From IMG/VR virus record IMGVR_UViG_3300025141_013347, positions 1 to 61,706 of that record: a stretch of 61,706 nt of DNA. The stretch is one strand, 5' to 3'. Position numbers and translations under genes: made by a program. This document shows positions 5,374-60,651 of this stretch, piece after piece; the first letter of the stretch is position 1, and each line of letters starts with the position of its first letter. This stretch comes from a virus. Under the pieces are notes generated by a model. The model was not told where the DNA came from and did no database searches. It saw nothing but the letters and a program-made list of their open reading frames with translations.

Positions 5374-5719
5374 TAATTGTGGAAAAACATTTGATCATTT
5401 TGCCATAAATGTTTCATTCATCAGAGCGTCAGTAGAGTGGTACAAACTTGAATGTTCTGCTGTTGTGCTTTACGAGGACGAAAGTTGGGCACTCTTGGAA
5501 GTGGGTGGTATAAAGCTAGCTTTGACACTAGGCAGTCAGCACCCACCCCACATAGCATTTAGGTGCAGGGATAGGCACGAATTGGAGCGTAAGGGACCTT
5601 CCATAGGTTGTCATCGAGACGGTACGGAGTTTTTATACACTTCGGATTTAGATGGTAATTTTATTGAATGGATATATTATCCCCAAAACCGTGAGGGAAA
5701 GAATGATAATAAAGAGTGA
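5363..5719 (+). CDS. VOC (glyoxalase/dioxygenase) superfamily protein
   Basis: This 118-residue single-module protein has the vicinal-oxygen-chelate pattern: FDHFAINV (metal His near residue 12), a strand with GGIKLALT, HIAFRC in the middle, and a C-terminal DLDGNFIEW with the metal-binding Glu. Family members act as metal-dependent lyases, isomerases or resistance proteins; the substrate cannot be inferred. It overlaps pckA by 11 bases and the methylase gene by 17, so the three are translationally linked. Confidence 0.7.
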   Translation: MTTSNCGKTFDHFAINVSFIRASVEWYKLECSAVVLYEDESWALLEVGGIKLALTLGSQHPPHIAFRCRDRHELERKGPSIGCHRDGTEFLYTSDLDGNFIEWIYYPQNREGKNDNKE

Positions 5720-6383
5720 GAAACTATTAAGCGAAGATGAGTTAGTTATTGAAGATAACGAGGCGCAGAAGTTTGGGGTAATCTTGGCAGATCCTCCCTG
5801 GCGCTTTAATGACAATCTCAAGTATGAGAAGAGAGACAAGACCGTGAGGGGAGTTAATTATATGTACCCCACACTAGATCTCTCAGCAATCGCCCGCTTG
5901 CCGATCAGCGACTTGACTGCAGAAAATGCGTTATGTGCGCTTTGGGTACCTTCAGCATTCTTAAAGGCTGGAATGGATATATTAGAGGCGTGGGGATTTC
6001 AGTATAGACAATTGTGGATATGGGGGAAAACATCTAAAAGGGATCCTCTTAATTTAGCGTTTGGGATGGGACGCCTTGCCCGAAACTGTCATGAACCGTG
6101 TCTTGTCGGCATAAAGGGAAAGTATACTAAATACTTAAAGAACCATTCACAACGAAATCTTTTTATGCATCCTACCATGAAACATTCACAAAAGCCAGAA
6201 TCTATTCAGGATAGTCTGGATCTGATGTTTCCGGAATGGGACAAGCTCGAGCTATTTGCTCGTCGTGACCGTAAGGGGTGGACATGCATCGGGAATGAGG
6301 CACCGTTAACGGCAGGTGAAGATATCAGAGACTCAATTAGTGATCTAGTAGGATATGATGTAATGAACACGCCGAAGGGATAG
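5703..6383 (+). CDS. MT-A70-family adenine methyltransferase
   Basis: The start at 5703 is preferred because GAGGGA lies just upstream. DPPW at residues 30-33 is the catalytic motif of N6-adenine methylases. The fold continues with LCALWVPSAF, a motif-I-like region (ELFARRDRKGW), and a final gate segment. It probably methylates adenine in phage DNA, either to avoid host restriction or for regulation; an RNA substrate cannot be excluded. No specificity subunit or nuclease is adjacent, so it is likely an orphan enzyme. Confidence 0.85.
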   Translation: MIIKSEKLLSEDELVIEDNEAQKFGVILADPPWRFNDNLKYEKRDKTVRGVNYMYPTLDLSAIARLPISDLTAENALCALWVPSAFLKAGMDILEAWGFQYRQLWIWGKTSKRDPLNLAFGMGRLARNCHEPCLVGIKGKYTKYLKNHSQRNLFMHPTMKHSQKPESIQDSLDLMFPEWDKLELFARRDRKGWTCIGNEAPLTAGEDIRDSISDLVGYDVMNTPKG

Positions 6384-6389
6384 TAGCGT

Positions 6390-7412
6390 ATGAAAGATCT
6401 TTATTCTATATTGGGCCTGCAAAAATCAGCTTCACAATCTGAGATTAAAAAAGCTTATCGAGGTCTGGCTAAGAAATACCATCCTGACAAAAACATAGGT
6501 GATGAGGCAGCCGAGGAAAAGTTTAAAGAGATTTCACAGGCGTATGAGATCTTAAGCGATCCTGAGAAAAGGGAGCAGTATGATAACCCTGCTTCTGGGC
6601 GTGATCCCTTTGGCGGTTTCGGGGATATGTTTTCTAGCTTTGAGGATATATTCGGTAGCTTTTTTGGTGGTTCAAATGCTTCACAGGCCCAGCAGAGAGA
6701 TCCCAGGCTTGACGTTGATGTTGAGGCTTCACTATCTTTTGAAGAAGCGGCCCTAGGGTGTGAAAAAGAAATACGGTTTAATATAAGGGAGGCATGTGTT
6801 GAGTGCACAGGTACCGGGTGTCGTCCGGGTACAACACCCCTAGTATGCAAAACCTGTTCGGGTGCGGGCAGGACCAGCGTTAAGCAAGGCTTTATGGTTG
6901 TTACTCTGCCGTGTAATGCCTGTAACGGTCATGGCAAGGTCATTGCCACCCCCTGCGGTTCTTGTAAGGGCCAGGCAGTCGTGAGTAGTCCTAGGAACTT
7001 GCGTGTCAATATACCGGCCGGCGTGGAGTCGTCTAATATTATTTCTTATGATGGTGAAGGTCATGAGGAGGGGGGCATGATGATGTCTCGTGGGAGTCTT
7101 AACGTACACATTCGCGTAGCCCCCTCGAAATCATTTCGTAGGAATGGGATGAATATAATCTCAATCCAAACCCTTGACTATCCCACAATGGCCCTAGGGG
7201 GCCTAACAGATATTCAGACGGTCCACGGAACAGTTTCAGTAAGGGTTCCTCCAGGATCACAGGTTGGATCATACCTCAAGCTTCATGGGAAAGGGATAAA
7301 GAAGACGGGTGACGTTCCAGGCGATCACTTGGTACAACTGACCGTTAATATTCCTCCAGACCTTACGCCCAAGGCTAAGGAACTTTTGGAAGAATTAAGA
7401 AAAAATTTATGA
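6390..7412 (+). CDS. dnaJ: DnaJ (Hsp40) co-chaperone
   Basis: Full-length type I DnaJ of 340 residues. The J-domain spans residues 1-65 with HPD at 31-33, and a Gly/Phe linker spans about 70-95 ([14 protein letters not shown]). A zinc-binding region of four CxxCxGxG-type repeats begins at residue 136 ([30 protein letters not shown]), and a substrate-binding C-terminal domain ends in LLEELRKNL. It would direct host DnaK to phage proteins. Full dnaJ genes are unusual in phages. It starts 6 bases after the methylase stop. Confidence 0.95.
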
Positions 7413-8070: not shown

Positions 8071-8094
8071 GTATATGTAATCAGGGAGGCAACA

Positions 8095-14226: not shown

Positions 14227-14249
14227 AATATTAAAACAAAGTGATTACA

Positions 14250-15284
14250 ATGAAAATTAAATCTTCCGTATGTTTTGACGATGTACTTTTGGTACCAAAA
14301 TATTCTAATATTCGCTCACGTAAAGACATCAGTCTAGGCTTATGCTTAAAGAACGTAGAGGGCACCTTTTCACTCCCTATTGTGTCGGCACCGATGGATA
14401 CCGTAACAGGCCCGGAAATGACATCAGCCATGTCAACAGCAGGTGGTCTAGGTATTCTTCATCGCTATAATACAATAGAAGAACAGGTAGATCTTGTGTT
14501 GGAAGCAACTGCGTTGCAACCCGATCTCCGCTTCGGCGCGGCCGTAGGTGTGACCGGTGATTTCAAAGAGCGTTCTGTTGCACTCTACACGGCTGGCTGT
14601 CGAATTTTTTGTCTTGATGTTGCACATGGACATCATTTTCTTATGAAAGATGCACTTAAGTTTTTAAGGGGTGCATTTGGAAAGGAAGTACATTTAATGG
14701 CAGGAAATATTGCTACCCTACGGGCATTCAATGATCTAGCCGACTGGGGCGCTGATAGTATTCGAGTAGGAGTAGGTGGCGGTTCAATTTGCTCCACCCG
14801 GATCCAGACTGGACATGGTGTTCCCACACTGCAAAGTGTGATTGACTGTGCCATATCAGATCGGGACGTTGTGCTTATCGCTGACGGGGGTATTAAAAAT
14901 TCTGGCGACATGGTAAAGGCACTTGCTGCTGGAGCGGATGCTGTGATGTGTGGATCGCTACTGGCTGGAACAGAAGAGACTCCAGGTCTTGTTTTGAGAT
15001 CAAGTGGCGGTGAACCACCGAGGAAGGTATACAGGGGCATGGCTAGCCGGGAAGCACAAAAGGCCTGGCGAGGCAAGGTAGGATCAGTTGAGGGTGTCGC
15101 GACAACAGTGCCACTCAGGGGGCCGGTTGGTAATGTTTTACACGATCTGGAATGGGGAATTCGAAGCGGCCTTTCTTACACCGGTGCAAGGACAATATCA
15201 GAGCTTCAGTCAACTGCTACTTTTGTAAAGCAGACATCTTCTGGAGCCATGGAGAGTTCAACACATATAATGAATAAAGTATAA
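14250..15284 (+). CDS. IMP dehydrogenase/GMP reductase family enzyme
   Basis: A TIM-barrel enzyme of about 344 residues. FDDVLLVP at the start, SAPMDTVTG, and the catalytic-cysteine loop GGGSICSTR with C181 are clear. ADGGIKNSGD and the YRGMAS flap motif are also present. There are no CBS domains, so it is a compact form. CSTRIQTGHGVP leans to GMP reductase, while YRGM leans to IMP dehydrogenase, so the reaction direction is open. Either activity would adjust purine nucleotide pools during phage replication. ATG 14250 is preferred over GTG 14241. A strong terminator follows. Confidence 0.85.
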   Translation: MKIKSSVCFDDVLLVPKYSNIRSRKDISLGLCLKNVEGTFSLPIVSAPMDTVTGPEMTSAMSTAGGLGILHRYNTIEEQVDLVLEATALQPDLRFGAAVGVTGDFKERSVALYTAGCRIFCLDVAHGHHFLMKDALKFLRGAFGKEVHLMAGNIATLRAFNDLADWGADSIRVGVGGGSICSTRIQTGHGVPTLQSVIDCAISDRDVVLIADGGIKNSGDMVKALAAGADAVMCGSLLAGTEETPGLVLRSSGGEPPRKVYRGMASREAQKAWRGKVGSVEGVATTVPLRGPVGNVLHDLEWGIRSGLSYTGARTISELQSTATFVKQTSSGAMESSTHIMNKV

Positions 15285-29985: not shown

Positions 29986-30852
29986 ATGATAGTCAATAAT
30001 TTAATAGGGGACACCCCACTAATTCAGGTGTCAGAGAATGTCTACGCCAAACTAGAGACGGTTAACCCCTCAGGTTCTGTGAAGGATAGGATGGTATCAT
30101 ATTTAATTTCTCGTGCTATTGAATCTGGGGAGCTGTGTGAAAGACATGATACACTTATCGAGGCCAGCAGTGGTAACACCGGTATAAGTTTATCAATGAT
30201 GGGAGCAGCCCTAGGGCGTCATGTTATTATTATCATGCCTCAAAATATGAGTGAAGAGAGAAAGTCTATGATGCGTTCGTACGGCGCTGAGATAATTGAG
30301 GTGGGAGATAATGCATTTGCAGATGCCATCGCTCTTCGTGATAAGTTATTAACACAAAACTTGAATTACTGGAGCCCTAAGCAATTTTCTAATCCGCTAA
30401 ACATCGAATGTCACTTTACAACAACTGCGTGGGAAATATTTAGTGGCATGCCTCGTGATAAAAAGCTGGAGGCGTTTATTCATGGGGCTGGGACTGGGGG
30501 GACCATGATGGGCATAAAGAAATTTTTTGACCGCTGGCCGGATTTTGCATATAATCCTGAATTTATCCTTGTACAGCCGGCAGAGCCAGCATCCGAGCAT
30601 GGTATTCAGGGAATAAATGATGGTGCTGATTTTTTGGTGGATACAGCGTCGATGCATGGAAATATTATGATATCAACTAATGAGGCAATCGAGAGAGCAA
30701 AAAGGTTCGCTAGCGAAACCGGATTGCTGGTGGGTATAAGTTCCGGTGCGAACCTATTGGCATGCGAAAGATATATTGAGGAAAGGGATATAGAGGGCTT
30801 TGTCGTAACGATCTTATGTGATCGCGGTGAGCGCTATTTAAGCATCTTTTAA
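29986..30852 (+). CDS. cysteine synthase (O-acetylserine sulfhydrylase)
   Basis: PLP-dependent fold type II enzyme of 288 residues. GDTPLIQVS at the N-terminus, PSGSVKDR with the PLP lysine K33, ASSGNTGIS (substrate loop), GTGGT (phosphate binding) and ISSGAN near the end. It would make cysteine from O-acetylserine and sulfide. It is shorter than CysK (about 320), with reduced C-terminus. A viral cysteine synthase could support sulfur metabolism or Fe-S proteins such as the adjacent radical-SAM enzyme; this link is inferred. Confidence 0.9.
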   Translation: MIVNNLIGDTPLIQVSENVYAKLETVNPSGSVKDRMVSYLISRAIESGELCERHDTLIEASSGNTGISLSMMGAALGRHVIIIMPQNMSEERKSMMRSYGAEIIEVGDNAFADAIALRDKLLTQNLNYWSPKQFSNPLNIECHFTTTAWEIFSGMPRDKKLEAFIHGAGTGGTMMGIKKFFDRWPDFAYNPEFILVQPAEPASEHGIQGINDGADFLVDTASMHGNIMISTNEAIERAKRFASETGLLVGISSGANLLACERYIEERDIEGFVVTILCDRGERYLSIF

Positions 30853-32147
30853 GGCATCATACTTTTAATAAGCTCGCGCCTTTCATCTTCATTGGTCCAT
30901 ACCTTTCTTGCATCATCACTTAAAGAGTGTAGCGGGTCAAAGTACAAGAATTTCCTCCCGGGCTTTACGCTGGGGGCCGTGTAAATACTGATCCCAAACT
31001 TTCTGTCATAGAGTTCAAATGAGTGAACGCAGCGTTTTCCACCCCCGCCAGGTGCATCGACTACAAACGTCGGTGTATTAAACCCGGATGTTACTCCTCT
31101 CACATGCTTTTCAACATCTATCGCCGTCTGTACGGATGTTCTCATATCTTCTGTGCCCGCTGTTAAGTCATGGACATATACATAATAGGGCTGGATATTA
31201 ATATAGCTCAGCTTTTTGATCAACGGGATCATTTCTTCCGGTGTATCATTAACCCCTGCCTGAAAGACTGACTGATTGCGTACTTTCACCCCACGTGAAA
31301 ATAGTAGATTCATCGCATCACGTGTGATATTGGTAATTTCATTGGTATGATTAAAGTGCGTGTGAATGCATACTTCTTTATATTGTTTTCTACCCTTTTC
31401 TACGATCCTACAAACTTCGTCCGTCCATTGCGTATCGGTGAGTATTTTCATGGGCATGATTGCTAATCCTTTTGTCGCGAATCGAAACCTACGAATATGA
31501 TCAATTTTAAGAAGTTCTTCGCCTACTTCTTTTACTTGCGATGCCTTTAGACGATATGAGTCTCCACCTGATATCACCACATCCTGGATCTGCTTGTTTT
31601 CTTTGAGGTATTTGAACATATCGTTCCACCGATCTTTAGTGGCCTTGATAGATATCTTTTCAGCAGTATCTGTGTCACCTCCCACAGCGTAGGCTCGTGT
31701 ACAGTACCGACAATAAACTGGGCACGTGTCAAGCGCAAGAAACAAAACTTTATCTTCGTACCTATGGGTCAGGCCTCTTACGGGGGAATCTGCCTGTTCA
31801 CCCAAGCTATCGAATCTCAACATAGGGTGGTCAGGTTGTAGATGAGAAGCAAGTGTCAGAAATTGTCTTCTAATGGGACAGTTGGCGGGATCTTTAAAGT
31901 CCATTAATGACAGTAGGTACGGAGTTATCCTAGTTGTCATAGGGGCTTTTTTAAACCCGGCGGCTGCGTCTTCTAAAAATTCATCATCCACAAGATCCTG
32001 GATTGTTTTAAGAAGCTTTTTATGGTTTGTAATTGCATTCTTTTCTTGCCATCGGTGGTCTATAAACGTCTTATAATCGACATTCTTCCACACAGGTATA
32101 TGCTTCCAAAATTCATCATCTCTAAATACTTTAAAGTTTGTCATCAT
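30849..32147 (-). CDS. kamA: lysine 2,3-aminomutase family radical SAM enzyme
   Basis: 432 residues from the ATG at 32147, preceded by GGGAGAT. The SAM iron-sulfur motif CPVYCRYC has C142, C146 and C149. DVVISGGDSYRL, THFNHTNEIT, NQSVFQAGVNDTPE and the PLP-binding PGGGGK segment are all family motifs. The enzyme interconverts L-lysine and L-beta-lysine. In bacteria beta-lysine derivatives act as osmolytes, and the related EpmB modifies lysine for elongation factor P. The full length favours KamA over EpmB. It lies convergent to cysteine synthase with 4 shared bases. Rarely reported in phages. Confidence 0.88.
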   Translation of the reverse strand: MMTNFKVFRDDEFWKHIPVWKNVDYKTFIDHRWQEKNAITNHKKLLKTIQDLVDDEFLEDAAAGFKKAPMTTRITPYLLSLMDFKDPANCPIRRQFLTLASHLQPDHPMLRFDSLGEQADSPVRGLTHRYEDKVLFLALDTCPVYCRYCTRAYAVGGDTDTAEKISIKATKDRWNDMFKYLKENKQIQDVVISGGDSYRLKASQVKEVGEELLKIDHIRRFRFATKGLAIMPMKILTDTQWTDEVCRIVEKGRKQYKEVCIHTHFNHTNEITNITRDAMNLLFSRGVKVRNQSVFQAGVNDTPEEMIPLIKKLSYINIQPYYVYVHDLTAGTEDMRTSVQTAIDVEKHVRGVTSGFNTPTFVVDAPGGGGKRCVHSFELYDRKFGISIYTAPSVKPGRKFLYFDPLHSLSDDARKVWTNEDERRELIKSMMP

Positions 32148-32218
32148 ATCAATACATATCTCCCATGTTTTTAGTTTGCAGGTAATGTAAGCAACCTCGA
32201 ATAATAGTATACAAAAAT

Positions 32219-32248
32219 TGTGCAAATTTTCGTAATTTGAGGTATAAT
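32219..32248 (+). promoter_or_regulatory. phage promoter, GTGCAA-17-TATAAT class
   Basis: TGTGCAA (32219-32225), a 17-base spacer, TATAAT (32243-32248), preceded by GG. It reads right, away from kamA, into the gene at 32270. Confidence 0.75.
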
Positions 32249-38538: not shown

Positions 38539-38653
38539 GCTTCTTTCTTGGGTGGGGGCATGCTTTAGTAGGTTTCGGCCTCGAGCGTGTAGTCCGTAGT
38601 GGGAGGTTTTATATATTATTAATAATTTTAACTAGTTACATGACGATTGAATT

Positions 38654-53020: not shown

Positions 53021-53026
53021 ATGTTT

Positions 53027-53056
53027 CGTGCAAAATAGTCATGCCTATGGTATAAT
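53027..53056 (+). promoter_or_regulatory. phage promoter, GTGCAA-17-TATAAT class, head of the KOW array
   Basis: TTCGTGCAA (53027-53033), 17 bases, GGTATAAT (53051-53056). Confidence 0.8.
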
Positions 53057-53082
53057 ATTATTATAGAAAAGGAAAGGACATC

Positions 53083-53296: not shown

Positions 53297-53686
53297 ATGA
53301 ACCGCGGTACAATCAAAAAGTACTATCGTGAAGCTATCGTTAGTGTCTTCGGTTGTGATGATAAAAAGATTGATGCACAACTTCTTAAGGCAGTTAAGGA
53401 AGATATTCATCTTGTCGGGCATGCTCCCGGGGAATGGATAAGTTCAGAAGGCGTATTAGAAATCTATTGTGAAAATGGAATTCCTAATGCATCTGATGTT
53501 CACGACTTTAGCTATGAGGCTCGCGAGTTTGGACTGGACCCATCGCATGCCGTCAGCTACAACAGTGATAAATGGGACATGATCGACGGTCTCGTCAACC
53601 TGATGCTTGAAGCAACGGGAGAGCCTCAACGTTATTATCATGAACCTTATAATAGCGCCGTTGTTGGTATTTGGGTTAACCCATGA
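53297..53686 (+). CDS. unknown protein, 129 aa
   Basis: TIKKYYREAIVSVFGCDDKK at the N-terminus. Acidic and aromatic middle. No family. Overlaps the first array gene by 4 bases. Confidence 0.55.
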   Translation: MNRGTIKKYYREAIVSVFGCDDKKIDAQLLKAVKEDIHLVGHAPGEWISSEGVLEIYCENGIPNASDVHDFSYEAREFGLDPSHAVSYNSDKWDMIDGLVNLMLEATGEPQRYYHEPYNSAVVGIWVNP

Positions 53687-53892
53687 AGCCAGGTGACTTG
53701 GTGGTACGAAAAATTGATGAGCGATATTTCGAGCGCCGTACGGCCCTTAGACAGCGTCAAGAACTGGGATATGGTCTTATCTTGACGAAGCAGATGGCCG
53801 GCCAGAACCCAGCTCATCCATGCATCACTGTTTTCTACCCGAAGACAGGGCAGGTTTACGACATTGCAGAGAGCCTGATGGAGATCCTATGA
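53683..53892 (+). CDS. KOW array gene 1 (MKPGDLV), 69 aa
   Basis: Starts MKPGDLVVRKID. Later ELGYGLILTKQ and ITVFYPKTGQVYDIA form the barrel. The ending does not follow the ESR rule. Overlaps the next gene by 4 bases. Small KOW/SH3 proteins usually bind RNA or protein. Confidence 0.68.
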   Translation: MKPGDLVVRKIDERYFERRTALRQRQELGYGLILTKQMAGQNPAHPCITVFYPKTGQVYDIAESLMEIL

Positions 53893-54152
53893 AGGTCGGT
53901 GATTTGATTAAAGAGAAAGCAACCGGTCGCACAGGGTTCATTGAGCGAATCGACAAGGATTACTACGGTGCCACGCTGGCCTTCAAACGTTATAAACCGA
54001 TTGAGCGAGGTAAGTGTATCCGTGGGGATAGTGTTGACGGCTTTGGTCCGACAAAAGATGGTAAGCAAGACCGTGTGATGATTTGTTGGACAGACGATTA
54101 TGCGTCATATTTGAAATCTGCAGATATTGAGGTGATCAGTGAAAGTCGGTGA
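53889..54152 (+). CDS. KOW array gene 2 (MKVGDLI), 87 aa
   Basis: MKVGDLIKEKATGRTGFIER begins at ATG 53889. It ends ADIEVISESR; the last 14 bases are also the start of gene 3. GAGGTGATC inside its C-terminus is the likely ribosome site of the next gene. Confidence 0.7.
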   Translation: MKVGDLIKEKATGRTGFIERIDKDYYGATLAFKRYKPIERGKCIRGDSVDGFGPTKDGKQDRVMICWTDDYASYLKSADIEVISESR

Positions 54153-54333
54153 CCTGGTGCGAACAATTTCCGGGGCCGAGCGTCGTGATGAGTTAGGAGT
54201 TATTTCCTCCATCATCGAACCACATGAGCATAATCTTTGGCCAGGAGACAATCTGATCGAAGTTCTATACGGCGACGGTTTTTTAAGATGGAACGAGCGT
54301 AGCCTAGAGGTAGTAAGTGATGCAAGTCGGTGA
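54139..54333 (+). CDS. KOW array gene 3, 64 aa
   Basis: Starts at GTG inside the previous C-terminus (MKVGDLVRTISGAE). DELGVISSIIEP, NLIEVLYGDGFL, ends SLEVVSDASR. A 14-base overlap upstream, 14 or 17 downstream. Confidence 0.7.
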   Translation: MKVGDLVRTISGAERRDELGVISSIIEPHEHNLWPGDNLIEVLYGDGFLRWNERSLEVVSDASR

Positions 54334-54499
54334 TTTGATATATCACAAGTGGGGCAAAGATTGTGGTGTTGTGGTCGGACGTCCGGACCCAGCAAGACAA
54401 CCACCGCCGAATAACTGGTATGTAATGTTCGGCACTAAAATAACCATGGTTCACGAAGATAGTTGCGAGGTCATGAATGAATCAAATTTATCTGAATAG
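54320..54499 (+). CDS. KOW array gene 4 (MQVGDLI), 59 aa
   Basis: MQVGDLIYHKWGKDCGVVVG; middle NWYVMFGTKITMVHED. GTG 54317 just upstream is an alternative. It overlaps the next gene by 23 bases. Confidence 0.68.
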   Translation: MQVGDLIYHKWGKDCGVVVGRPDPARQPPPNNWYVMFGTKITMVHEDSCEVMNESNLSE

Positions 54500-54701
54500 A
54501 GAGCAGTGCTACAATTTTGGCGTTTCATATTATGAGGAAGGTAAAATTTCTCTACCTGCAGATGTGATCCTACAATCGAAAGGATATTCTGGATATGATC
54601 AAGTTCACCAGGATTTTCTAAAGCCTATGGGTAATCGAATTATCCACCTCAGCAAGACTTCCTCTGACGCACCTGGGTGGTATACAGTTGAAAGTCGGTG
54701 A
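54477..54701 (+). CDS. non-KOW gene using the array junction, 74 aa
   Basis: Different N-terminus (MNQIYLNREQCYNFGVSYYE) and fold, but it ends PGWYTVESR, sharing the 14-base dual-coding junction with gene 5. An inserted cassette that keeps the junction. Confidence 0.62.
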   Translation: MNQIYLNREQCYNFGVSYYEEGKISLPADVILQSKGYSGYDQVHQDFLKPMGNRIIHLSKTSSDAPGWYTVESR

Positions 54702-54876
54702 TTTAGTACGATTTCATTATGATCATCGCTGGACAGGGGCAACAAACGACTGGGGCCTTGGGCTTATTGAAGAGTCACACAACGATGGTACATTTGAGGT
54801 GATTTGGCCTAAGGCAAACTGGGCCTCCCGGACGCTGGGCCCTAAATGTCTGGAGGTTGTAAGTGAAAGTCGGTAA
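54688..54876 (+). CDS. KOW array gene 5, 62 aa
   Basis: TTG start in the shared junction (MKVGDLVRFHYDHRW). NDWGLGLIEESH, FEVIWPKANW, ends CLEVVSESR. Confidence 0.68.
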   Translation: MKVGDLVRFHYDHRWTGATNDWGLGLIEESHNDGTFEVIWPKANWASRTLGPKCLEVVSESR

Positions 54877-55078
54877 CTTGGTAAGGTGCAAATTCCAACC
54901 TAGCACTAGTAGGGTCCAGCATGGTATCTGCTTGCCCATGCCATATGATATCAAGGATGAATTAGGGATATACATTAAACATAGGGACGAATGCTCCGGT
55001 GTTGTTTTGTTTCCACAGTTTGGGTATGAACATACACTCGCGTGGATCTCACTGGAGATTATCAATGAAAGTCGGTGA
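54863..55078 (+). CDS. KOW array gene 6, 71 aa
   Basis: GTG start in the junction (MKVGNLVRCKFQPST). DELGIYIKHRDE and SGVVLFPQFGYEHTLAW; ends SLEIINESR. Confidence 0.68.
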   Translation: MKVGNLVRCKFQPSTSRVQHGICLPMPYDIKDELGIYIKHRDECSGVVLFPQFGYEHTLAWISLEIINESR

Positions 55079-55100
55079 ATATGGAATATTTTACTGTTAA
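55065..55100 (+). pseudogene. aborted KOW start (relic)
   Basis: ATGAAAGTCGGTGAA begins in the expected overlap, but the frame stops after 11 residues (MKVGEYGIFYC). A lost family member, with another tiny gene now in its place. Confidence 0.55.
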
Positions 55101-55161
55101 CAATGTTGCTACTGCGATGATTGTCGGAATACTTTTGTTCTTCGAGGGAAGAGATAAATGA
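55081..55161 (+). CDS. 26-residue membrane peptide inside the array
   Basis: MEYFTVNNVATAMIVGILLF is mostly hydrophobic. GAATATGG around the start, ATGA overlap with gene 7. Confidence 0.45.
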   Translation: MEYFTVNNVATAMIVGILLFFEGRDK

Positions 55162-55358
55162 AAGTCGGTGATTTAGTAATAGTCAGACAGGACATAAATG
55201 AATTTGTTGATATACACGGCAAAGTGCCAGGTATCATCACAGATATGATTCCACCAAAAACAAATCCCCAACTAGTTGAAATTCGTTGGACAGCTGGGAA
55301 TGATGAATTTGAGAAATTTTATTCAGATGAACTTGAGGTGATTAGTGAAAGTCGGTGA
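55158..55358 (+). CDS. KOW array gene 7, 66 aa
   Basis: MKVGDLVIVRQDINEFVDIH; ends ELEVISESR with the next start in the same 14 bases. GAGGGAAGAG upstream is the ribosome site. Confidence 0.7.
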   Translation: MKVGDLVIVRQDINEFVDIHGKVPGIITDMIPPKTNPQLVEIRWTAGNDEFEKFYSDELEVISESR

Positions 55359-55518
55359 CGTTGTGAGGTATATTCATAAGAAATTTCCAAAAGACACACT
55401 CGGAATTATTTTAGGGATCAAAGGCAAGAAAGTTCGGGTTCAATGGGCTAATCATCCATCTGGGCCGGCTGCATCATTCATCGAAGAAAACAAAGAATCT
55501 TTGAAGGCAACACAATGA
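55345..55518 (+). CDS. KOW array gene 8, 57 aa
   Basis: GTG start (MKVGDVVRYIHKKFPKD). TLGIILGIKGKKVRVQWAN is the barrel core. It does not end in ESR; joins the next gene by a 4-base ATGA. Confidence 0.68.
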   Translation: MKVGDVVRYIHKKFPKDTLGIILGIKGKKVRVQWANHPSGPAASFIEENKESLKATQ

Positions 55519-55715
55519 AGACCGGTGACTTGGTATCCTGGCCCCAGGGTTATTGTGACACCCCGGGACTAGTTCTTGACACAAGGCCCACTAAAGGTAG
55601 TAAGACAATCACTGTGTCGATGAACCCGACTGGCATGGCAGTATTGGTAATGCTACCTGAGCTTGAAAATATCCCTGAGTGGTTTCATGAATGTGAATTA
55701 GAAAAATTATCGTAG
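55515..55715 (+). CDS. KOW array gene 9, 66 aa
   Basis: MKTGDLVSWPQGYCDTPGLV; KTITVSMNPTGMAVLVML forms the later strands. Confidence 0.68.
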   Translation: MKTGDLVSWPQGYCDTPGLVLDTRPTKGSKTITVSMNPTGMAVLVMLPELENIPEWFHECELEKLS

Positions 55716-55740
55716 TAAGCAACATAGGGAGGGCATGCTG

Positions 55741-55947
55741 ATGAAAAAGGGTGACATGGTTACAACAAACTGCTACGGGCAATCCTATCAAAAAATGATA
55801 GGTGTTATAGTTAACTGCTCTAGGGACTGCTACCCCCAATCATTCGTTACCGAACATATTACATACGATATTATGTGGGCAAACGGAAAATTTGAGAATT
55901 ATGTTTCAGCAAAATATCTTAAGGTCATAAATAATGAAACTATATGA
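55741..55947 (+). CDS. KOW array gene 10, 68 aa
   Basis: GGGAGGG sits 7 bases before ATG 55741. MKKGDMVTTNCYGQS, then MIGVIVNC and YDIMWANGKFENYV. Overlaps the ligase gene by 14 bases, but with a different sequence. Confidence 0.66.
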   Translation: MKKGDMVTTNCYGQSYQKMIGVIVNCSRDCYPQSFVTEHITYDIMWANGKFENYVSAKYLKVINNETI

Positions 55948-57184
55948 AATATTAGAAAATATAAAAAATACACCATCAACTAATGAAAAAAAGAATATTC
56001 TTGAGCAACACACATCAAACATGTTGCTTCAGAAGGCATTAAGCTATGGACTCAATCCATTCACACCATTTAATGTGATCAAAGTACCAAAGGTAACCGA
56101 ACGTGTTCTATGTCATGATGATGAAAATAATAGGTGGGAAGCATTCTTTGAGGTTGCGGATGCATGCCATTTAAGAGAAGTCACCGGTAAATCAGCAATT
56201 GCTGCCCTGTATGGAATACTGGCCGCTGTGCCTCATGACGAAGAGATATGGATGCGAAGAATTCTTAAAAAGCATCTAGCAATTGGAGCATCCGTAAAAA
56301 CTGTCAATAAGGTTTTTGCAAACCTAATACCCACATTTGATATTTCATTGGCACAAAAATTTGAAGAGAAACGTATCGCTGGAAAGAGTGCTGTGGGTGT
56401 TGAGCCAAAGCTTGATGGTATTAGATGCTTTGCTATTGTTGAAAAAGGAACGTCACTTCTTTATGCACGATCCGGAAAATTGATCAGTAATTTTGATGAT
56501 ACAATTGGCAGAGAATTATTATTGTTGGGTGACGGTTGTTATGATGGGGAGATAATGGGTAAAGATTTTATAACCCTAATGCGGCAGGCATATAGAAAAG
56601 AATCAATTGATGTGTCCGACACATATTTTGCCATGTTTGATTTTTTACCTATTCATGAATGGACGGCGCGCCGGTCTGTAATGAGCTGTGCAGATAGGTA
56701 TGCCACGCTTGATGATAAAGTTCAGCTGCATAAACCCAACGAGCGTTACGTAAGACTAGTGCCACGACACATTACTAGCATTGACTATCAAGAGATTAAG
56801 GGGTTGCATGACGAGTTTGTCATGTCTGGAATGGAAGGCGCGATGATTAAAGATCTAGATGCACCATATAAATTTGGCAGGGGATATGAAGTAATGAAGC
56901 TTAAGGCATTTCATGACACTGACCTTAAGATTGAAGGACTCTTAGAGGGCACAGGAAAGCATTCAGGAAAGCTTGGCTCTGTAGTTGTTGATTACCATGG
57001 GGTAAAGGTTAATATTGGTTCTGGGTTCTCTGATGAGCTAAGGAAACTAGTGTGGGAGCAACCACAAAATTTTGTGGGCAGAATGATTGAGGTGAGGTAT
57101 CAAGAAGTGACACCTGATGGGTCTCTTCGTTTTCCCACATTTGTTTGTTTTCGAAATGATAGAGAAGAAGGGTTAAGAGAATGA
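55934..57184 (+). CDS. ATP-dependent DNA ligase (T4 gp30-like)
   Basis: 416 residues. Motif I VEPKLDGIR with the adenylated lysine K159, motif III DGEIMG (YDGEIM), motif IV MEGAMIKD, motif V VMKLKAF, and a C-terminal OB domain. The N-terminal helical domain (1-140) resembles that of T4 ligase. It seals nicks in replication and repair. Its ATG is inside the last KOW gene. Confidence 0.93.
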   Translation: MKLYEILENIKNTPSTNEKKNILEQHTSNMLLQKALSYGLNPFTPFNVIKVPKVTERVLCHDDENNRWEAFFEVADACHLREVTGKSAIAALYGILAAVPHDEEIWMRRILKKHLAIGASVKTVNKVFANLIPTFDISLAQKFEEKRIAGKSAVGVEPKLDGIRCFAIVEKGTSLLYARSGKLISNFDDTIGRELLLLGDGCYDGEIMGKDFITLMRQAYRKESIDVSDTYFAMFDFLPIHEWTARRSVMSCADRYATLDDKVQLHKPNERYVRLVPRHITSIDYQEIKGLHDEFVMSGMEGAMIKDLDAPYKFGRGYEVMKLKAFHDTDLKIEGLLEGTGKHSGKLGSVVVDYHGVKVNIGSGFSDELRKLVWEQPQNFVGRMIEVRYQEVTPDGSLRFPTFVCFRNDREEGLRE

Positions 57185-57372
57185 AAAAGAAAGATCTATT
57201 AGTGAAGGTTTTTTCGTGGCGTCTAGTGTCACTAATTTCGATGCTACTCACGCTGTGGGTGTTGACCGGTGACCTTATCGAGTCAACATCTGTTACAATA
57301 ATTGTGCAGATCATTCAAACCATGGTCCATGGATCATTTGAGTACATATGGGACAAATATAAAAAAACATAA
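57181..57372 (+). CDS. DUF2061-like membrane protein, 63 aa
   Basis: KKKDLLVKVFSWRLVSLISM is the family start (K-x-x-S-W-R), then two helices and WDKYKK at the end. Overlaps the ligase by 4 bases. Function unknown. Confidence 0.65.
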   Translation: MKKKDLLVKVFSWRLVSLISMLLTLWVLTGDLIESTSVTIIVQIIQTMVHGSFEYIWDKYKKT

Positions 57373-57385
57373 ACATGTATAATTT

Positions 57386-57415
57386 CGTGCAAAATATCCG
57401 GCGGCGTGGTATAAT
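57386..57415 (+). promoter_or_regulatory. phage promoter, GTGCAA-17-TATAAT class
   Basis: TTCGTGCAA (57386-57392), 17 bases, GGTATAAT (57410-57415), before the second block of array genes. GGGGATACCCCC in the leader could form a hairpin. Confidence 0.8.
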
Positions 57416-57457
57416 ATAAATGTTGGTTGGGGATACCCCCTGAAATAGGAGCTGACA

Positions 57458-57631
57458 TTGTTTAAGGTTGGAGATCGAGTTAAGGCACTTACCCCCGACG
57501 GCTATCACGCCGGTGTGGTGGTTCGTGTACTCCCTGATTGGTATTGGTCAGTGTGTCAGTATGTGGTTGAGTTCGTTGAACTCGGCCGGCACGAGTTTCC
57601 TGTCGACTCCGGACTTAAGGCGGATATCTAA
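57458..57631 (+). CDS. KOW array gene 11, 57 aa
   Basis: TTG start after AATAGGAGCTGACA (MFKVGDRVKALTPDG). GVVVRVLPDWYWSVC then strands. Ends with TAATG into the next gene. Confidence 0.68.
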   Translation: MFKVGDRVKALTPDGYHAGVVVRVLPDWYWSVCQYVVEFVELGRHEFPVDSGLKADI

Positions 57632-57978
57632 TGGGCTACGGTTATCGTAATATGAGCGCGGACGAGCTGAAGGGCTTCACCATGGAGATCAACTTCGACG
57701 ATGTGGGTTGCAATCTCACGCTGTTTGCCGGGGATGCCTGGCACTACACCAAGTACAAGATCACCTACGAGGAGCTCAGTAAGTGGCAACTCTCGGGTAA
57801 ATACACGGAGGAGCTTGCATGGTCCCGATCGGAGTTTGTCCGCCAGTTCCTCGAGGACCCCAAACGCGCCGACAGTATGCCTCACAGCGGCGTCCGCGAG
57901 TGGATGAAGTCGGAAGACCAGGGACGCTACAAGCCGAATCCATTTTGTATCTTCCTCTCCAAGTGGCAGGTGTCCTAA
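57631..57978 (+). CDS. unknown protein inside the array, 115 aa
   Basis: MGYGYRNMSADELKGFTMEI; acidic alpha/beta. Starts in the TAATG of gene 11, ends in TAATG of gene 12. Higher GC than neighbours, maybe recent transfer. Confidence 0.6.
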   Translation: MGYGYRNMSADELKGFTMEINFDDVGCNLTLFAGDAWHYTKYKITYEELSKWQLSGKYTEELAWSRSEFVRQFLEDPKRADSMPHSGVREWMKSEDQGRYKPNPFCIFLSKWQVS

Positions 57979-58136
57979 TGAAAGTCGGTGATATAGTATT
58001 CCATTCCGCTGATAGGAGCGTGGGAATCATTATAGAGGTAATCGACCATATTGAGGTTCCACCGGTCGCCAAGATATTGTGGCAGGATGGCTTTATTGAT
58101 AAAGAGTGGATAGATGAGATTGAGATGGTTGCATGA
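57978..58136 (+). CDS. KOW array gene 12, 52 aa
   Basis: MKVGDIVFHSADRSVGIIIE; VAKILWQDGFIDKEWID. Four-base overlap with gene 13. Confidence 0.68.
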   Translation: MKVGDIVFHSADRSVGIIIEVIDHIEVPPVAKILWQDGFIDKEWIDEIEMVA

Positions 58137-58312
58137 AGATCGGTGATGTGGTAAAGCTCGAGGCGTCGATTCGCAAAAATGGACGTTATGCCGGGAAGAT
58201 TGCACTGATCATAGACACTGATCAGTGGGGGGGTTACGTGCTCAATGTTGATGGTGAAGTGAAAAAATTTCATACAACTCAAATTATGGGGATCATTAAT
58301 GAAACCCGGTGA
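58133..58312 (+). CDS. KOW array gene 13, 59 aa
   Basis: MKIGDVVKLEASIRKNGRY; ends IMGIINETR. Its last 14 bases encode MKPGD of gene 14. Confidence 0.68.
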   Translation: MKIGDVVKLEASIRKNGRYAGKIALIIDTDQWGGYVLNVDGEVKKFHTTQIMGIINETR

Positions 58313-58517
58313 CATGGTGAGACTCATCGGATCAATGTGGTCTTCATATGAACGTGAGGGTGAAGTAGGGCTTTTGCTGGAATCCAGTATAATGAATAAT
58401 CGCAGTGGATACCCAAACGCAGAGTTTTCACGGGTCTTCTGGGGTACCGATTCGCCACGTGGAAAAATTAGTATTTGTAAGACTTCACACTTGGAGGTAC
58501 TCAATGAAAATCGGTGA
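58299..58517 (+). CDS. KOW array gene 14, 72 aa
   Basis: MKPGDMVRLIGSMWSSY; FSRVFWGTDSPRG; ends HLEVLNENR with the junction into gene 15. Confidence 0.68.
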   Translation: MKPGDMVRLIGSMWSSYEREGEVGLLLESSIMNNRSGYPNAEFSRVFWGTDSPRGKISICKTSHLEVLNENR

Positions 58518-58668
58518 CTTGGTTAAGTTTCGTGGTAACCTTGGGATTGTTATTTGTATCGACCCTGAACAGATAGGCGACCCCCAAGAAGTGGAAGTTT
58601 CTTGGAGCGATGGTGATATTGGGAATATGGACTGTATTTTGTTGGAGGTCGCCAGTGAAAGTCGGTGA
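58504..58668 (+). CDS. KOW array gene 15, 54 aa
   Basis: MKIGDLVKFRGNLGIVICID; EVEVSWSDGDIG; ends LLEVASESR; 14-base junctions on both sides. Confidence 0.7.
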   Translation: MKIGDLVKFRGNLGIVICIDPEQIGDPQEVEVSWSDGDIGNMDCILLEVASESR

Positions 58669-58852
58669 TCTTGTTACTACATTGTCTAAAAATTTTCTTG
58701 GTGTTATTGTTGAGTCCCGTGTGACGCCTCGGCGAGCAGACCGAGGGAAAAATACACAATGTCATCTTATCTACTGGGCTCCGCGAGATTCAGTTAGCGT
58801 AGAGATAAATCCGGTATGGGTAATGGAACGAGATCTACTGAGGGCGTTATGA
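58655..58852 (+). CDS. KOW array gene 16, 65 aa
   Basis: GTG start (MKVGDLVTTLSKNFLGVIVE). The end ERDLLRAL lacks the ESR tail and overlaps the next ATG by 4 bases. Confidence 0.68.
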   Translation: MKVGDLVTTLSKNFLGVIVESRVTPRRADRGKNTQCHLIYWAPRDSVSVEINPVWVMERDLLRAL

Positions 58853-59070
58853 AAGTAGGTGATCTTGTTAGGGTAAAGAACCCTACATATCTTGTAACCG
58901 GTGATAATGAAGAACAGGCACGGGAGCTCTATCCATGGAAGTTCGAAGTAGGTGTTGTTATAGATGCCAGGCCGGCCGGTAAATCCTTCGATGGAAAAGA
59001 GGTATATGTGTGTTGGCCAAGTTCGCCACTGAGGACAATCCTAATCCGAGAGCTGGAGGTGATTGGATGA
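58849..59070 (+). CDS. KOW array gene 17, 73 aa
   Basis: MKVGDLVRVKNPTYLVTGD; FEVGVVIDARPAG; ends RELEVIG. Four-base overlap downstream. Confidence 0.68.
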   Translation: MKVGDLVRVKNPTYLVTGDNEEQARELYPWKFEVGVVIDARPAGKSFDGKEVYVCWPSSPLRTILIRELEVIG

Positions 59071-59252
59071 TAAAAGTCGGTGATCTGATCAGCCTGCCAT
59101 ATGAACAGGGATACGCAATTGCTATGAAGGTTGTTAGGCACAGTCAGGATCCGAGCATGCCCACCGGTGATACTGCCGTCATGATCATGGGAGAGTGGGG
59201 CGAGGACTGGTGGGATGCAGATTGTTGTGAGGTACTAAGTGAAAGTAGGTAG
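59067..59252 (+). CDS. KOW array gene 18, 61 aa
   Basis: MIKVGDLISLPYEQGYAIAM; ends CEVLSESR with TAG as stop. The 14-base junction GTGAAAGTAGGTAG also starts gene 19. Confidence 0.68.
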   Translation: MIKVGDLISLPYEQGYAIAMKVVRHSQDPSMPTGDTAVMIMGEWGEDWWDADCCEVLSESR

Positions 59253-59418
59253 CATGGTACTTCCGGATTTTCCGACTAACCGTAAAGATTGGCGCGCCGA
59301 CTGGCCCGATGGGTCTCCTGGAATCGTGCTTGAAGAACATGAGTTCAACGTATACACAATTATGGCAGGAACGTGGGTTGAAGAGGTCAACATTGAATAT
59401 CTCGTGGAGATTGTATGA
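59239..59418 (+). CDS. KOW array gene 19, 59 aa
   Basis: GTG start (MKVGSMVLPDFPTNRKD). GSPGIVLEEHEFNVYTIMAG. ATGA overlap with a lipoprotein gene. Confidence 0.65.
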   Translation: MKVGSMVLPDFPTNRKDWRADWPDGSPGIVLEEHEFNVYTIMAGTWVEEVNIEYLVEIV

Positions 59419-59621
59419 ATACTAAGATTAAAGTATTTGTACTAGCATCTATTCTTTCATCTTTATCCGGATGTCATAGTATTCGCTACCCTGCAATCGG
59501 TGCTAGCAGCAAATACACAGTCCGGCCAGCAAACTGGCGCGGGCAAAGATGCATATTGACCCTAGATACACATACAGGGAAAAAAATATATGTATGTGGA
59601 CCTGATCGGTTTCGGAGATGA
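59415..59621 (+). CDS. small lipoprotein, 68 aa
   Basis: Signal (KVFVLASILSSLSGC) with lipobox LSGC. Mature part basic, with paired cysteines (CILTLDTHTGKKIYVC). A cassette inside the array. The 30 bases after it contain a decayed KOW junction. Confidence 0.65.
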   Translation: MNTKIKVFVLASILSSLSGCHSIRYPAIGASSKYTVRPANWRGQRCILTLDTHTGKKIYVCGPDRFRR

Positions 59622-59623
59622 TC

Positions 59624-59638
59624 AGCGAAAGTTGGTGG
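59624..59638 (+). repeat. decayed copy of the KOW junction
   Basis: AGCGAAAGTTGGTGG differs from AGTGAAAGTCGGTGA at three positions and lies in an untranslated gap. It suggests that the lipoprotein cassette replaced or split a former KOW pair. Confidence 0.5.
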
Positions 59639-59651
59639 CTGGAAAATAACA

Positions 59652-59876
59652 ATGAAGAAGATTATACTACTAATTGGAATATTTTTTTGGCAAGGTTGTA
59701 GTGTAAAGCCTGAAAAGATCTGTGTGGATTTTGTTGGCTTGAATGAATGCAACGCAAGTAAAGAATGTATGCCATTACCTGCATGGAAACCCAGTGGCAC
59801 AGGAACTTATGATGGAATATTAACATGCATTAGAAAGCGTCCTTATGACATTAAAGACCTGTACCCGCCTAAATGA
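59652..59876 (+). CDS. small lipoprotein, 74 aa
   Basis: MKKIILLIGIFFWQGC has a lipobox-like WQGC. Four more cysteines in the mature part (ICVDFVGLNECNASKEC). Overlaps the next KOW gene by 4 bases. Confidence 0.6.
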   Translation: MKKIILLIGIFFWQGCSVKPEKICVDFVGLNECNASKECMPLPAWKPSGTGTYDGILTCIRKRPYDIKDLYPPK

Positions 59877-60061
59877 AAGTGGGTGACTTGGTAAGGGTAA
59901 GGCTCAAAGAATCACCTAAACGACTTCATATTGGAATTGTAGTAAGAACCCGGCCTAGGATGTATATGGTTGGAAATGCTGTAGAAGTTATGATTAACGG
60001 GGTGGTTAGAGTCGTAAAAGAAGAGCATATAGAAGTAATTAATAAAAAAGGAGTAAGTTAA
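59873..60061 (+). CDS. KOW array gene 20, 62 aa
   Basis: MKVGDLVRVRLKESPKRLHI; HIGIVVRTRPRMYMVG; ends IEVINKKGVS. Confidence 0.68.
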   Translation: MKVGDLVRVRLKESPKRLHIGIVVRTRPRMYMVGNAVEVMINGVVRVVKEEHIEVINKKGVS

Positions 60062-60250
60062 ATGAAAGTTCGTGATGTCCTTAAGGCTCTTAAGAGTATG
60101 AATCCGGATGATGATATTGTCCTTAAGCATCTGTATACTAGTCCGGAGGTTGTTATGACGAAGATAAGAGTGTATCCTATAGAGGGCAGGGTTATAATTG
60201 ATGGCTATGAGAAAGAGAAGCATGGGGCTCATAAAGAAAACCAAACGTGA
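60062..60250 (+). CDS. unknown protein, 62 aa
   Basis: MKVRDVLKALKSMNPDDDIV, a common phage-protein start, then strands and a charged tail. It starts directly after the previous stop. Not a KOW barrel. Confidence 0.55.
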   Translation: MKVRDVLKALKSMNPDDDIVLKHLYTSPEVVMTKIRVYPIEGRVIIDGYEKEKHGAHKENQT

Positions 60251-60470
60251 AGTTAACTTCACTAAAAACGAATCAGGTGATATTTTCTTATGCCGCCCTC
60301 CTGGATGGCTAGCAGGCTGGATGCGTCATTTATGGTTTACCCACCTAACAGGCATTAAGCCAAATATAGCTTCACCAAAATATTGGCAAGAGTTAAGCGA
60401 AAAGAATGGTGAGCTTAAGCTTATAGAATATGAGGATGGTTCATACGAGATTAGAGATGAAAGCCGGTGA
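60222..60470 (+). CDS. unknown protein with ESR junction, 82 aa
   Basis: Start uncertain (60222 used; TTG 60198 or ATG 60201 or 60207 also possible). FLCRPPGWLAGWMRHLWFTH is a Trp-rich segment. Ends YEIRDESR, with the 14-base overlap into gene 21. Confidence 0.5.
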   Translation: MGLIKKTKREVNFTKNESGDIFLCRPPGWLAGWMRHLWFTHLTGIKPNIASPKYWQELSEKNGELKLIEYEDGSYEIRDESR

Positions 60471-60651
60471 TTTAGTCATCAGGTGCGTAGCTGCTACTCA
60501 AACCCTCCGACCTGATCTCGGCATGGGACTAGTTGCAGATGATAATATCATAAGAAATCGTATCGGTATTATATGGTGTGAGGATAACGGGAGTGTTAGT
60601 TACGAACCGGTTAAATGGTTAAAGGTGGTTAGCAAAATTCCGCGAATATGA
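60457..60651 (+). CDS. KOW array gene 21, 64 aa
   Basis: MKAGDLVIRCVAATQTLRPD; MGLVADDNIIRNRIGIIWCE; the array's last gene, followed by a terminator. Confidence 0.68.
   Translation: MKAGDLVIRCVAATQTLRPDLGMGLVADDNIIRNRIGIIWCEDNGSVSYEPVKWLKVVSKIPRI

Follow-up and report, generated by a model that had tools for sequence, protein, structure and literature searches.

A dual-coding start block as the probable border of exchangeable gene cassettes in an array of KOW-like genes of marine T4-like phages

The KOW-like gene array and its junctions

Here, we describe an array of small KOW-like genes in a linear 61.7-kb IMG/VR virus record, IMGVR_UViG_3300025141_013347, whose full 61,706 nucleotides (nt) are referred to as the window. 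The array lies at 53683-60651, and all of its features named below are on the + strand. A first-pass annotation, made from the sequence alone, had reported about 21 small KOW genes lying head to tail and sharing at eleven joints the same 14 bases, which encode -ESR-stop of one gene and MKVGD of the next in another frame. Both statements hold. We count 21 such genes by eye, and a hidden Markov model (HMM) of the family passes 19 of them, missing those that start at 57458 and 59239. All eleven joints with a 14-nt stop/start overlap were found, with -ESR* or near variants ending the upstream gene and MKVGD opening the next; the downstream starts are 54139, 54320, 54688, 54863, 55065, 55345, 58299, 58504, 58655, 59239 and 60457. 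The remaining joints are chiefly 4-nt ATGA overlaps, with a few 1-nt overlaps or gaps, and interspersed in the array are two lipoprotein-like genes, a DNA ligase-like gene and several orphans. Motifs of the RTGAAAGTCGGTGA type, i.e., GTGAAAGTCGGTGA with at most three mismatches, occur 29 times in the window, and 20 of these occurrences are + strand matches within the array, while shuffled sequence gives 4.9 chance matches per whole window (standard deviation 2.1, maximum 11).

The array opens with K1 (53683-53892, MKPGDLVV), which overlaps its upstream gene by 4 nt, and K2 (53889-54152), whose C terminus, IEVISESR*, runs through the junction at 54139-54152 (GTGAAAGTCGGTGA) shared with K3 (54139-54333). 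The next junction (54320-54333, ATGCAAGTCGGTGA) links K3 to K4 (54320-54499), which has an extended tail, EVMNESNLSE*, because the gene that follows is not KOW. That non-KOW gene (54477-54701) had been singled out as using the junction as well, and it does, ending as TVESR* inside the next KOW start (54688-54701, TTGAAAGTCGGTGA); the same is true of a second non-KOW gene (60222-60470), which ends as IRDESR* inside the start (60457-60470, ATGAAAGCCGGTGA) of K31 (60457-60651), the last gene of the array. K6 (54688-54876) and K7 (54863-55078) meet at 54863-54876 (GTGAAAGTCGGTAA, stop TAA). At the end of K7, the junction reported at 55065-55078 is present, but the KOW gene behind it is not: there is only an 11-codon frame, MKVGEYGIFYC*, and this junction probably marks where a cassette was lost or replaced. 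At 55065-55100 in the window and at 8073 in a related contig, L037, intact junctions are followed by a replaced KOW body after GGTGAATATG, with the same letters following in both; these two contigs also share a related ligase-like gene.

Further on lie K9 (55158-55358) and K10 (55345-55518), joined at 55345-55358 (GTGAAAGTCGGTGA), K11 (55515-55715) and K12 (55741-55947, MKKGDMV). K12 overlaps by 14 nt the start of an ATP-dependent DNA ligase-like gene (55934-57184; named by inspection, 62% to an L037 gene), and the letters of this overlap (ATGAAACTATATGA) are unrelated to the junction; non-KOW genes starting MKKYEEIG in three other contigs (L099, L121 and L042) likewise have 14-nt overlaps in unrelated letters. 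Downstream of the ligase-like gene are the divergent K15 (57458-57631, FKVGDRV), K17 (57978-58136) and K18 (58133-58312), followed by K19 (58299-58517; junction with K18 at 58299-58312, ATGAAACCCGGTGA), K20 (58504-58668; junction with K19 at 58504-58517, ATGAAAATCGGTGA) and K21 (58655-58852; junction with K20 at 58655-58668, GTGAAAGTCGGTGA). K22 (58849-59070) precedes K23 (59067-59252), whose nucleotide homology to the contig L115 spans 59067-59250, that is, a single cassette. K23 and K24 (59239-59418, MKVGSMV) share the junction at 59239-59252 (GTGAAAGTAGGTAG, stop TAG). Between the two lipoprotein-like genes, a decayed junction at 59612-59644 scores 23 of the 32 scored consensus positions, vs 19 for the best score outside the array, and is probably the footprint of a lost KOW cassette; K28 (59873-60061) lies beyond it. 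An identical TTCGTGCAAAATA, with GGTATAATAT 15-20 nt on, precedes both multi-gene blocks of the array (53025-53064 and 57384-57420), near matches to this element lie at 38652 and 45797, and it is possibly a phage promoter.

The start block RTGAAAGTCGGTGATTTGGT codes MKVGDLV. Within RTGAAAGTCGGTGA, the gene starts in frame 0, a TGA at positions 2-4 lies in the second frame and a TGA at 12-14 in the third. With a stop in both alternative frames, nearly any upstream gene that enters the block out of frame is terminated there. A GGAGGT ribosome-binding site stands 5 nt ahead of the start block and also codes LEV of the preceding gene; the consensus at 14-nt joints is TTGGAGGTNATCARTGAAAGTCGGTGATTTGGT.

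In the first-pass annotation, GAGGT had been read as encoding part of LEV while acting as ribosome-binding site, and the C-terminal LEVISESR as largely dictated by the start of the next gene. The overlap of GAGGT with LEV and the dependence of the tail on the neighbour are borne out: LEV is followed by exactly four residues at 418 of the 552 14-nt joints found in the window and related loci, and tails are mixed where the next gene is of another kind. The ribosome-binding site is not the sole cause of LEV, however, which is also a predicted structural strand. A model of K9 built on 108 relatives (pLDDT, the predicted local distance difference test, 86.4; pTM, the predicted template modelling score, 0.74) has strands at residues 6-9, 25-31, 39-44, 51-55 and 59-63 and is predicted to be a five-stranded SH3-like barrel. 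Because the fifth strand, residues 59-63, is LEVIS, LEV would both close the barrel as its last strand and serve as the GAGGT ribosome-binding site. Structural matches from Foldseek are to common SH3-like barrels, i.e., archaeal Spt5 KOW (Z 8.9), PsaE, R67 DHFR, HspQ-like and chromo-like folds, and since such barrels are common, these matches give no function. Only one of 108 members matched Pfam KOW (PF00467), with an E value of just 0.005 that does not pass the cut-off of that model, and the family is therefore termed KOW-like only; the family profile matched the NusG chain 2xhc with an E value of 8e-4 over 35 positions. A search for function in Pfam, PHROGs and PDB sequences returned weak SH3/KOW-like matches only.

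Spread and codon use of the junction

An exact scan of viral contigs for GARRTNNTNARTGAAAGTCGGTGA located at least 120 stretches that contain this pattern, drawn from 77 IMG/VR datasets; the reversed GARRTNNTNARTGAAAGTCGGTGA, as a control, had zero matches in viral contigs. At a score of 20, 683 motif matches lie at KOW starts, and there are none for the antisense or reversed motif. Within a related record, the junction sites share one strand, and a genome mostly holds them in a single cluster or a few clusters. Among the larger related records, 25 of the 30 tested encode a T4-type gp23; the window itself is a fragment without gp23. In 84,980 prokaryote genomes, we found ten stretches, all in records of metagenome-assembled genomes (MAGs) and mostly on small contigs, with one in a MAG chromosome (WOR-3); many of these may be binned phage DNA. 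One contig of 101,404 nt (L135, PBIO01000025.1) was binned as a Halobacteriovorax sp. MAG, and a record of equal length (L064, IMGVR_UViG_2788500220_000014) is listed as a virus; this is possibly a phage contig inside a MAG, in which case Halobacteriovorax is a putative host only. A 19-nt match in Salmonella phage Det7 is antisense within an annotated gene and was taken as chance. A profile-based search for further loci was unproductive, the KOW-like family being too divergent.

A simple gene caller, which matches the manual annotation of the window, was run on the first 120 loci listed and the window. Together, these loci and the window contain 1,064 KOW genes, and the 14-nt overlap is present at 552 of 742 KOW-KOW joints (74%), 91 of 393 joints of a non-KOW gene with a KOW gene and 33 of 1,628 non-KOW pairs (2%). 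A second scan of viral contigs, blind to joint type, added at least 64 loci that lack the first scan pattern, and 83 of their 187 KOW joints are still 14-nt. Non-KOW genes that run into a KOW start overlap it by 14 nt in 91 cases and by 4 nt in 106, vs 33 and 188 elsewhere (P = 3e-12).

Codon use in the block also departs from background. Valine 3 is GTC in 362 of the 433 valines among the listed codons of 14-nt joints, against a background of 19%. Of the alternatives, GTG would change the Arg of the upstream tail to Gly and GTT to Trp, but GTA would keep it, indicating a preference for GTC that goes beyond protein coding alone. Glycine 4 is GGT in 64-80% even without a 14-nt overlap (background 31%). 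Changes of GGT to GGC or GGA are rare, and the upstream gene then reads on to the next stop, giving an overlap of 23 or 29 nt and tails such as SESRRSR*. Between relatives, 53% of changes fall at codon position 3, as expected of coding sequence.

A second dialect of the junction has a different start type, ATGCAAGTAGG (MQVG/MQVGD), an upstream end LEVxCK* and a 10-nt overlap, with a TAG stop inside CAAGTAGG. It was found at 19 joints, in six loci (L153, L156, L195, L109, L054 and L191). That the same design recurs in other letters argues that placing a two-frame stop at the start has a value of its own.

Probable cassette exchange at the start block

It had been proposed that genes could be gained, lost or shuffled by recombination at the junctions and that relatives would reveal whether cassette boundaries coincide with them. 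They do coincide. For pairwise blocks of homology within arrays (at least 80% identity over at least 120 nt), 82% of left ends fall at -25 to +5 of a KOW start vs 15% of random positions, and 68% of right ends fall at 0 to +30 vs 12%. Given a match upstream, homology was broken at 67 and continuous at 80 KOW-KOW starts of the 14-nt type (46% broken), vs 17/147 for non-KOW starts (10%; P = 1.5e-12); for all KOW-KOW starts, the counts were 83 broken and 103 continuous, vs 2/177 at KOW gene centres (1%; P = 1e-26). Genes at 85-100% protein identity keep their neighbour at 59% of 14-nt KOW joints vs 89% of non-KOW gaps, and those at 70-85% identity at 12% vs 18%.

Gene order is strongly reshuffled between relatives, and clean insertions or deletions (indels) have their crossover in the start block. 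L018 and L020 differ by a clean indel of one 176-bp cassette with identical flanks over the 60 nt upstream and 46 nt downstream that were compared, and the crossover can lie anywhere in a 20-nt shared run beginning at the start codon. L065 and L082 differ by an indel of 703 bp that spans four genes. The sequence is ATGAAAACC in the left parent, GTGAAAGTC in the right parent and ATGAAAGTC in the product, which puts the crossover within the five letters TGAAA, and the exchange altered the upstream tail from NENR to NESR. Automatic three-way mapping gave 32 crossovers from 19 loci. Of these, 24 touch 0 to +20 and none lies beyond about -40 to +30, within an open range of -50 to +50; gene centres gave no three-way event. 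After re-joining, 42 of 46 14-nt ends stay 14-nt, indicating that joining is in register. Junction pairs that recombined share exact runs with a median of 14, longer than the median of 9 in the remaining pairs from those contigs (P = 0.008). Thus, crossovers fall within a short sequence common to both parents, as in shuffling at boundary sequences. A RecA-type recombinase scored above cut-off in all 22 large related records tested, and the whole junction is near the published minimal pairing lengths of 31-34 bp for RecA and 23-27 for Red-beta (PMC3945230).

The anatomy and spread of the junction, the position of the crossovers, the in-register joining and the altered tails can be read from the sequences themselves. 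On this basis, we suggest that the array is likely a gene-cassette platform of marine T4-like phages in which exchange takes place at the shared KOW start block. A cassette would extend from one start block to the next, and the block would do four jobs. It would start its own gene, and its two-frame stop would end an upstream gene of almost any kind, with -ESR* in the 14-nt frame. By its position 5 nt after GGAGGT, it would be served by a ribosome-binding site that codes the last strand of the preceding protein. Lastly, its ~20 nt (~33 nt with the part coding LEV and the ribosome-binding site) would provide a near-identical patch between otherwise unrelated neighbours. Recombination at this patch, probably by the phage's own machinery and between co-infecting phages, would join any cassette to any other in register, and every recombinant would regain a working stop, ribosome-binding site and start. 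The benefit would be a rapid turnover of accessory genes.

Some observations weigh against this model or narrow it. Homology is broken at 8 of 20 4-nt joints vs 67 of 147 14-nt joints (P = 0.81), and the overlap thus adds nothing measurable to recombination. We therefore rejected the 14-nt overlap itself as the preferred crossover site and place the patch in the shared start block; with this qualification, the shuffling proposed earlier is supported. Exchange events are not fully independent because the contigs are related, and part of the excess of breaks over other gene boundaries may reflect selection, accessory genes turning over often anyway. Coupled genes favour spacings of -4, -1 and -8, not -14, and longer overlaps reduce coupling (PMC12548453). 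Finally, tblastn with three member proteins matched none of 50,697 phage records and thus points to no cultured phage.

Three other explanations have to be weighed. The junction could be kept for translation only, as an optimised unit of coupled ribosome binding, stop and start, with shuffling incidental. GGAGGT at a 5-nt spacing is indeed an ideal ribosome-binding site, and the overlaps are maintained, the GGT-to-GGC changes that lengthen them to 23 or 29 nt being rare. However, the spacings enriched in coupling do not include -14 (PMC12548453), and neither the use of GTC over GTA, both of which give Arg in the tail, nor the conservation to +19 has an obvious translational reason; we regard this explanation as unlikely. 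In ordinary phage mosaicism, illegitimate recombination would occur anywhere, selection would retain joints at gene boundaries, and the junction would be a relic of old tandem duplication without a role in recombination. It is improbable, in our view, given that breaks are 4 to 7 times more frequent at KOW starts than at the other gene starts of the same contigs, that random joining would give varied offsets and tails rather than 42 of 46 joints in register, that the crossover intervals lie inside the shared block between partners with longer exact runs, and that the block has become uniform at its synonymous sites, contrary to background codon use. Nevertheless, ~90% of homology ends in these contigs are at some gene boundary, boundary sequences are not findable at most phage mosaic joints (PMC3029335), and the equal breakage of 4-nt and 14-nt KOW joints also fits mosaicism.

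The remaining explanation is birth and death of a tandem family within each genome, by unequal crossing over at repeated junctions and with little exchange between phages. All members look paralogous, and one locus, L010, holds a clear junction-to-junction duplication (250 nt, 81%) in which both copies begin 10 nt before the KOW start. Recent copies within an array are rare, however, while KOW genes give 61 matches at 85% or more, which link 44 pairs of different loci, and near-identical genes have differing neighbours. Tandem duplication as the main source of genes is therefore unsupported, local expansion seems to matter less than exchange between phages, and we consider this explanation very improbable.

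Neighbouring features, related systems and implications

Other features of the window lie outside the array. Another paralogous start module, MKITKRQLRRIIREA/KEE, lies at 13 starts (2580, 17623, 17871, 18425, 18787, 20468, 21478, 22220, 22540, 22852, which is internal, 60785, 61289 and 61553), at the head of proteins whose bodies otherwise differ; it may resemble the capsid-targeting N termini of T4, which carry a prohead-protease site (IxE-A). By inspection, host-like metabolic or chaperone genes lie at 3922-5373, 6390-7412, 14241-15284, 29986-30852 and 30849-32225, and the types among them are PEP carboxykinase-, DnaJ-, IMP dehydrogenase-, cysteine synthase- and lysine 2,3-aminomutase-like. 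In a related contig, L112, non-KOW genes at 1563-2630 and 5409-5922 have internal tandem repeats with a 69-nt period that are common to both places.

Several known systems share features with the array. PeSLs are intergenic elements consisting of a promoter and a stem-loop. They have been described as "mobile regulatory cassettes" of T4-type phages (Arbiol 2010 and Comeau 2014, cited in PMC4503421) and, as far as this citing paper describes them, resemble the array in that a short conserved sequence borders small hypervariable T4-like genes and is thought to mediate shuffling between related phages. Unlike PeSLs, the site in the array lies inside coding sequence, where it opens one gene and closes another. 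Neither promoter-like (21 vs 17.7 expected) nor terminator-like sequences (6 vs 4.8 expected) exceed chance in the array, and RNA folding at the junction gave no consistent hairpin. Start Associated Sequences of Cluster K mycobacteriophages are 13 bp long and lie upstream of starts, and a role in translation, not exchange, was proposed for them (PMC3203893). Like the junction, they are repeated and strand-oriented, have a ribosome-binding core, serve many gene families and sometimes contain the upstream stop; however, they do not code the downstream gene and are not tied to one protein family (PMC3203893), and their sequence, GGGATAGGAGCCC, differs from the consensus TTGGAGGTNATCARTGAAAGTCGGTGATTTGGT found here.

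Integron cassettes, which go with attC sites and a tyrosine integrase, likewise form arrays in which small genes open to exchange meet at a shared kind of boundary, except that the array junction has no consistent fold or hairpin and its cassettes overlap in coding sequence. NTGA (-4) coupling (PMC12548453) is similar in the stop/start overlap of neighbours and different in that the junction has a -14 spacing and the same letters are reused hundreds of times. The array is also comparable with the boundary sequences of mosaic phages, at which general recombinases act by homologous recombination on short sequences shared between modules; these are described as exceptional (PMC3029335), whereas here they are found in hundreds, near-identical, intragenic, arrayed and with stops in two frames. 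None of the compared systems puts the exchange site inside overlapping coding sequence, and the array, judged by its sequence, is an intragenic form of modular shuffling at boundary sequences. We found no description of the junction in the open-access literature; subscription papers were outside that scope.

More tentatively, the N-terminal coding sequence of the KOW-like genes could have been shaped beyond the needs of the protein into a recombination and two-frame stop site, making each gene its own cassette border. Such a site would have arisen in at least two dialects (ATGAAAGTCGGTGA with ESR* and ATGCAAGTAGG with CK*) and would turn the array into an open platform for the capture of unrelated genes.

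It is an old question how phages can exchange individual genes while keeping tightly packed, overlapping operons intact, and boundary sequences, proposed decades ago as an answer, have rarely been found. The array offers hundreds of such boundaries, crossovers resolved to the base and a coding logic that accounts for the working of any joint. Homology-directed modular exchange thereby becomes testable in bulk. The array also predicts what unrelated genes are able to enter, and looking for genes that end in a KOW start gives a route to new accessory phage genes.

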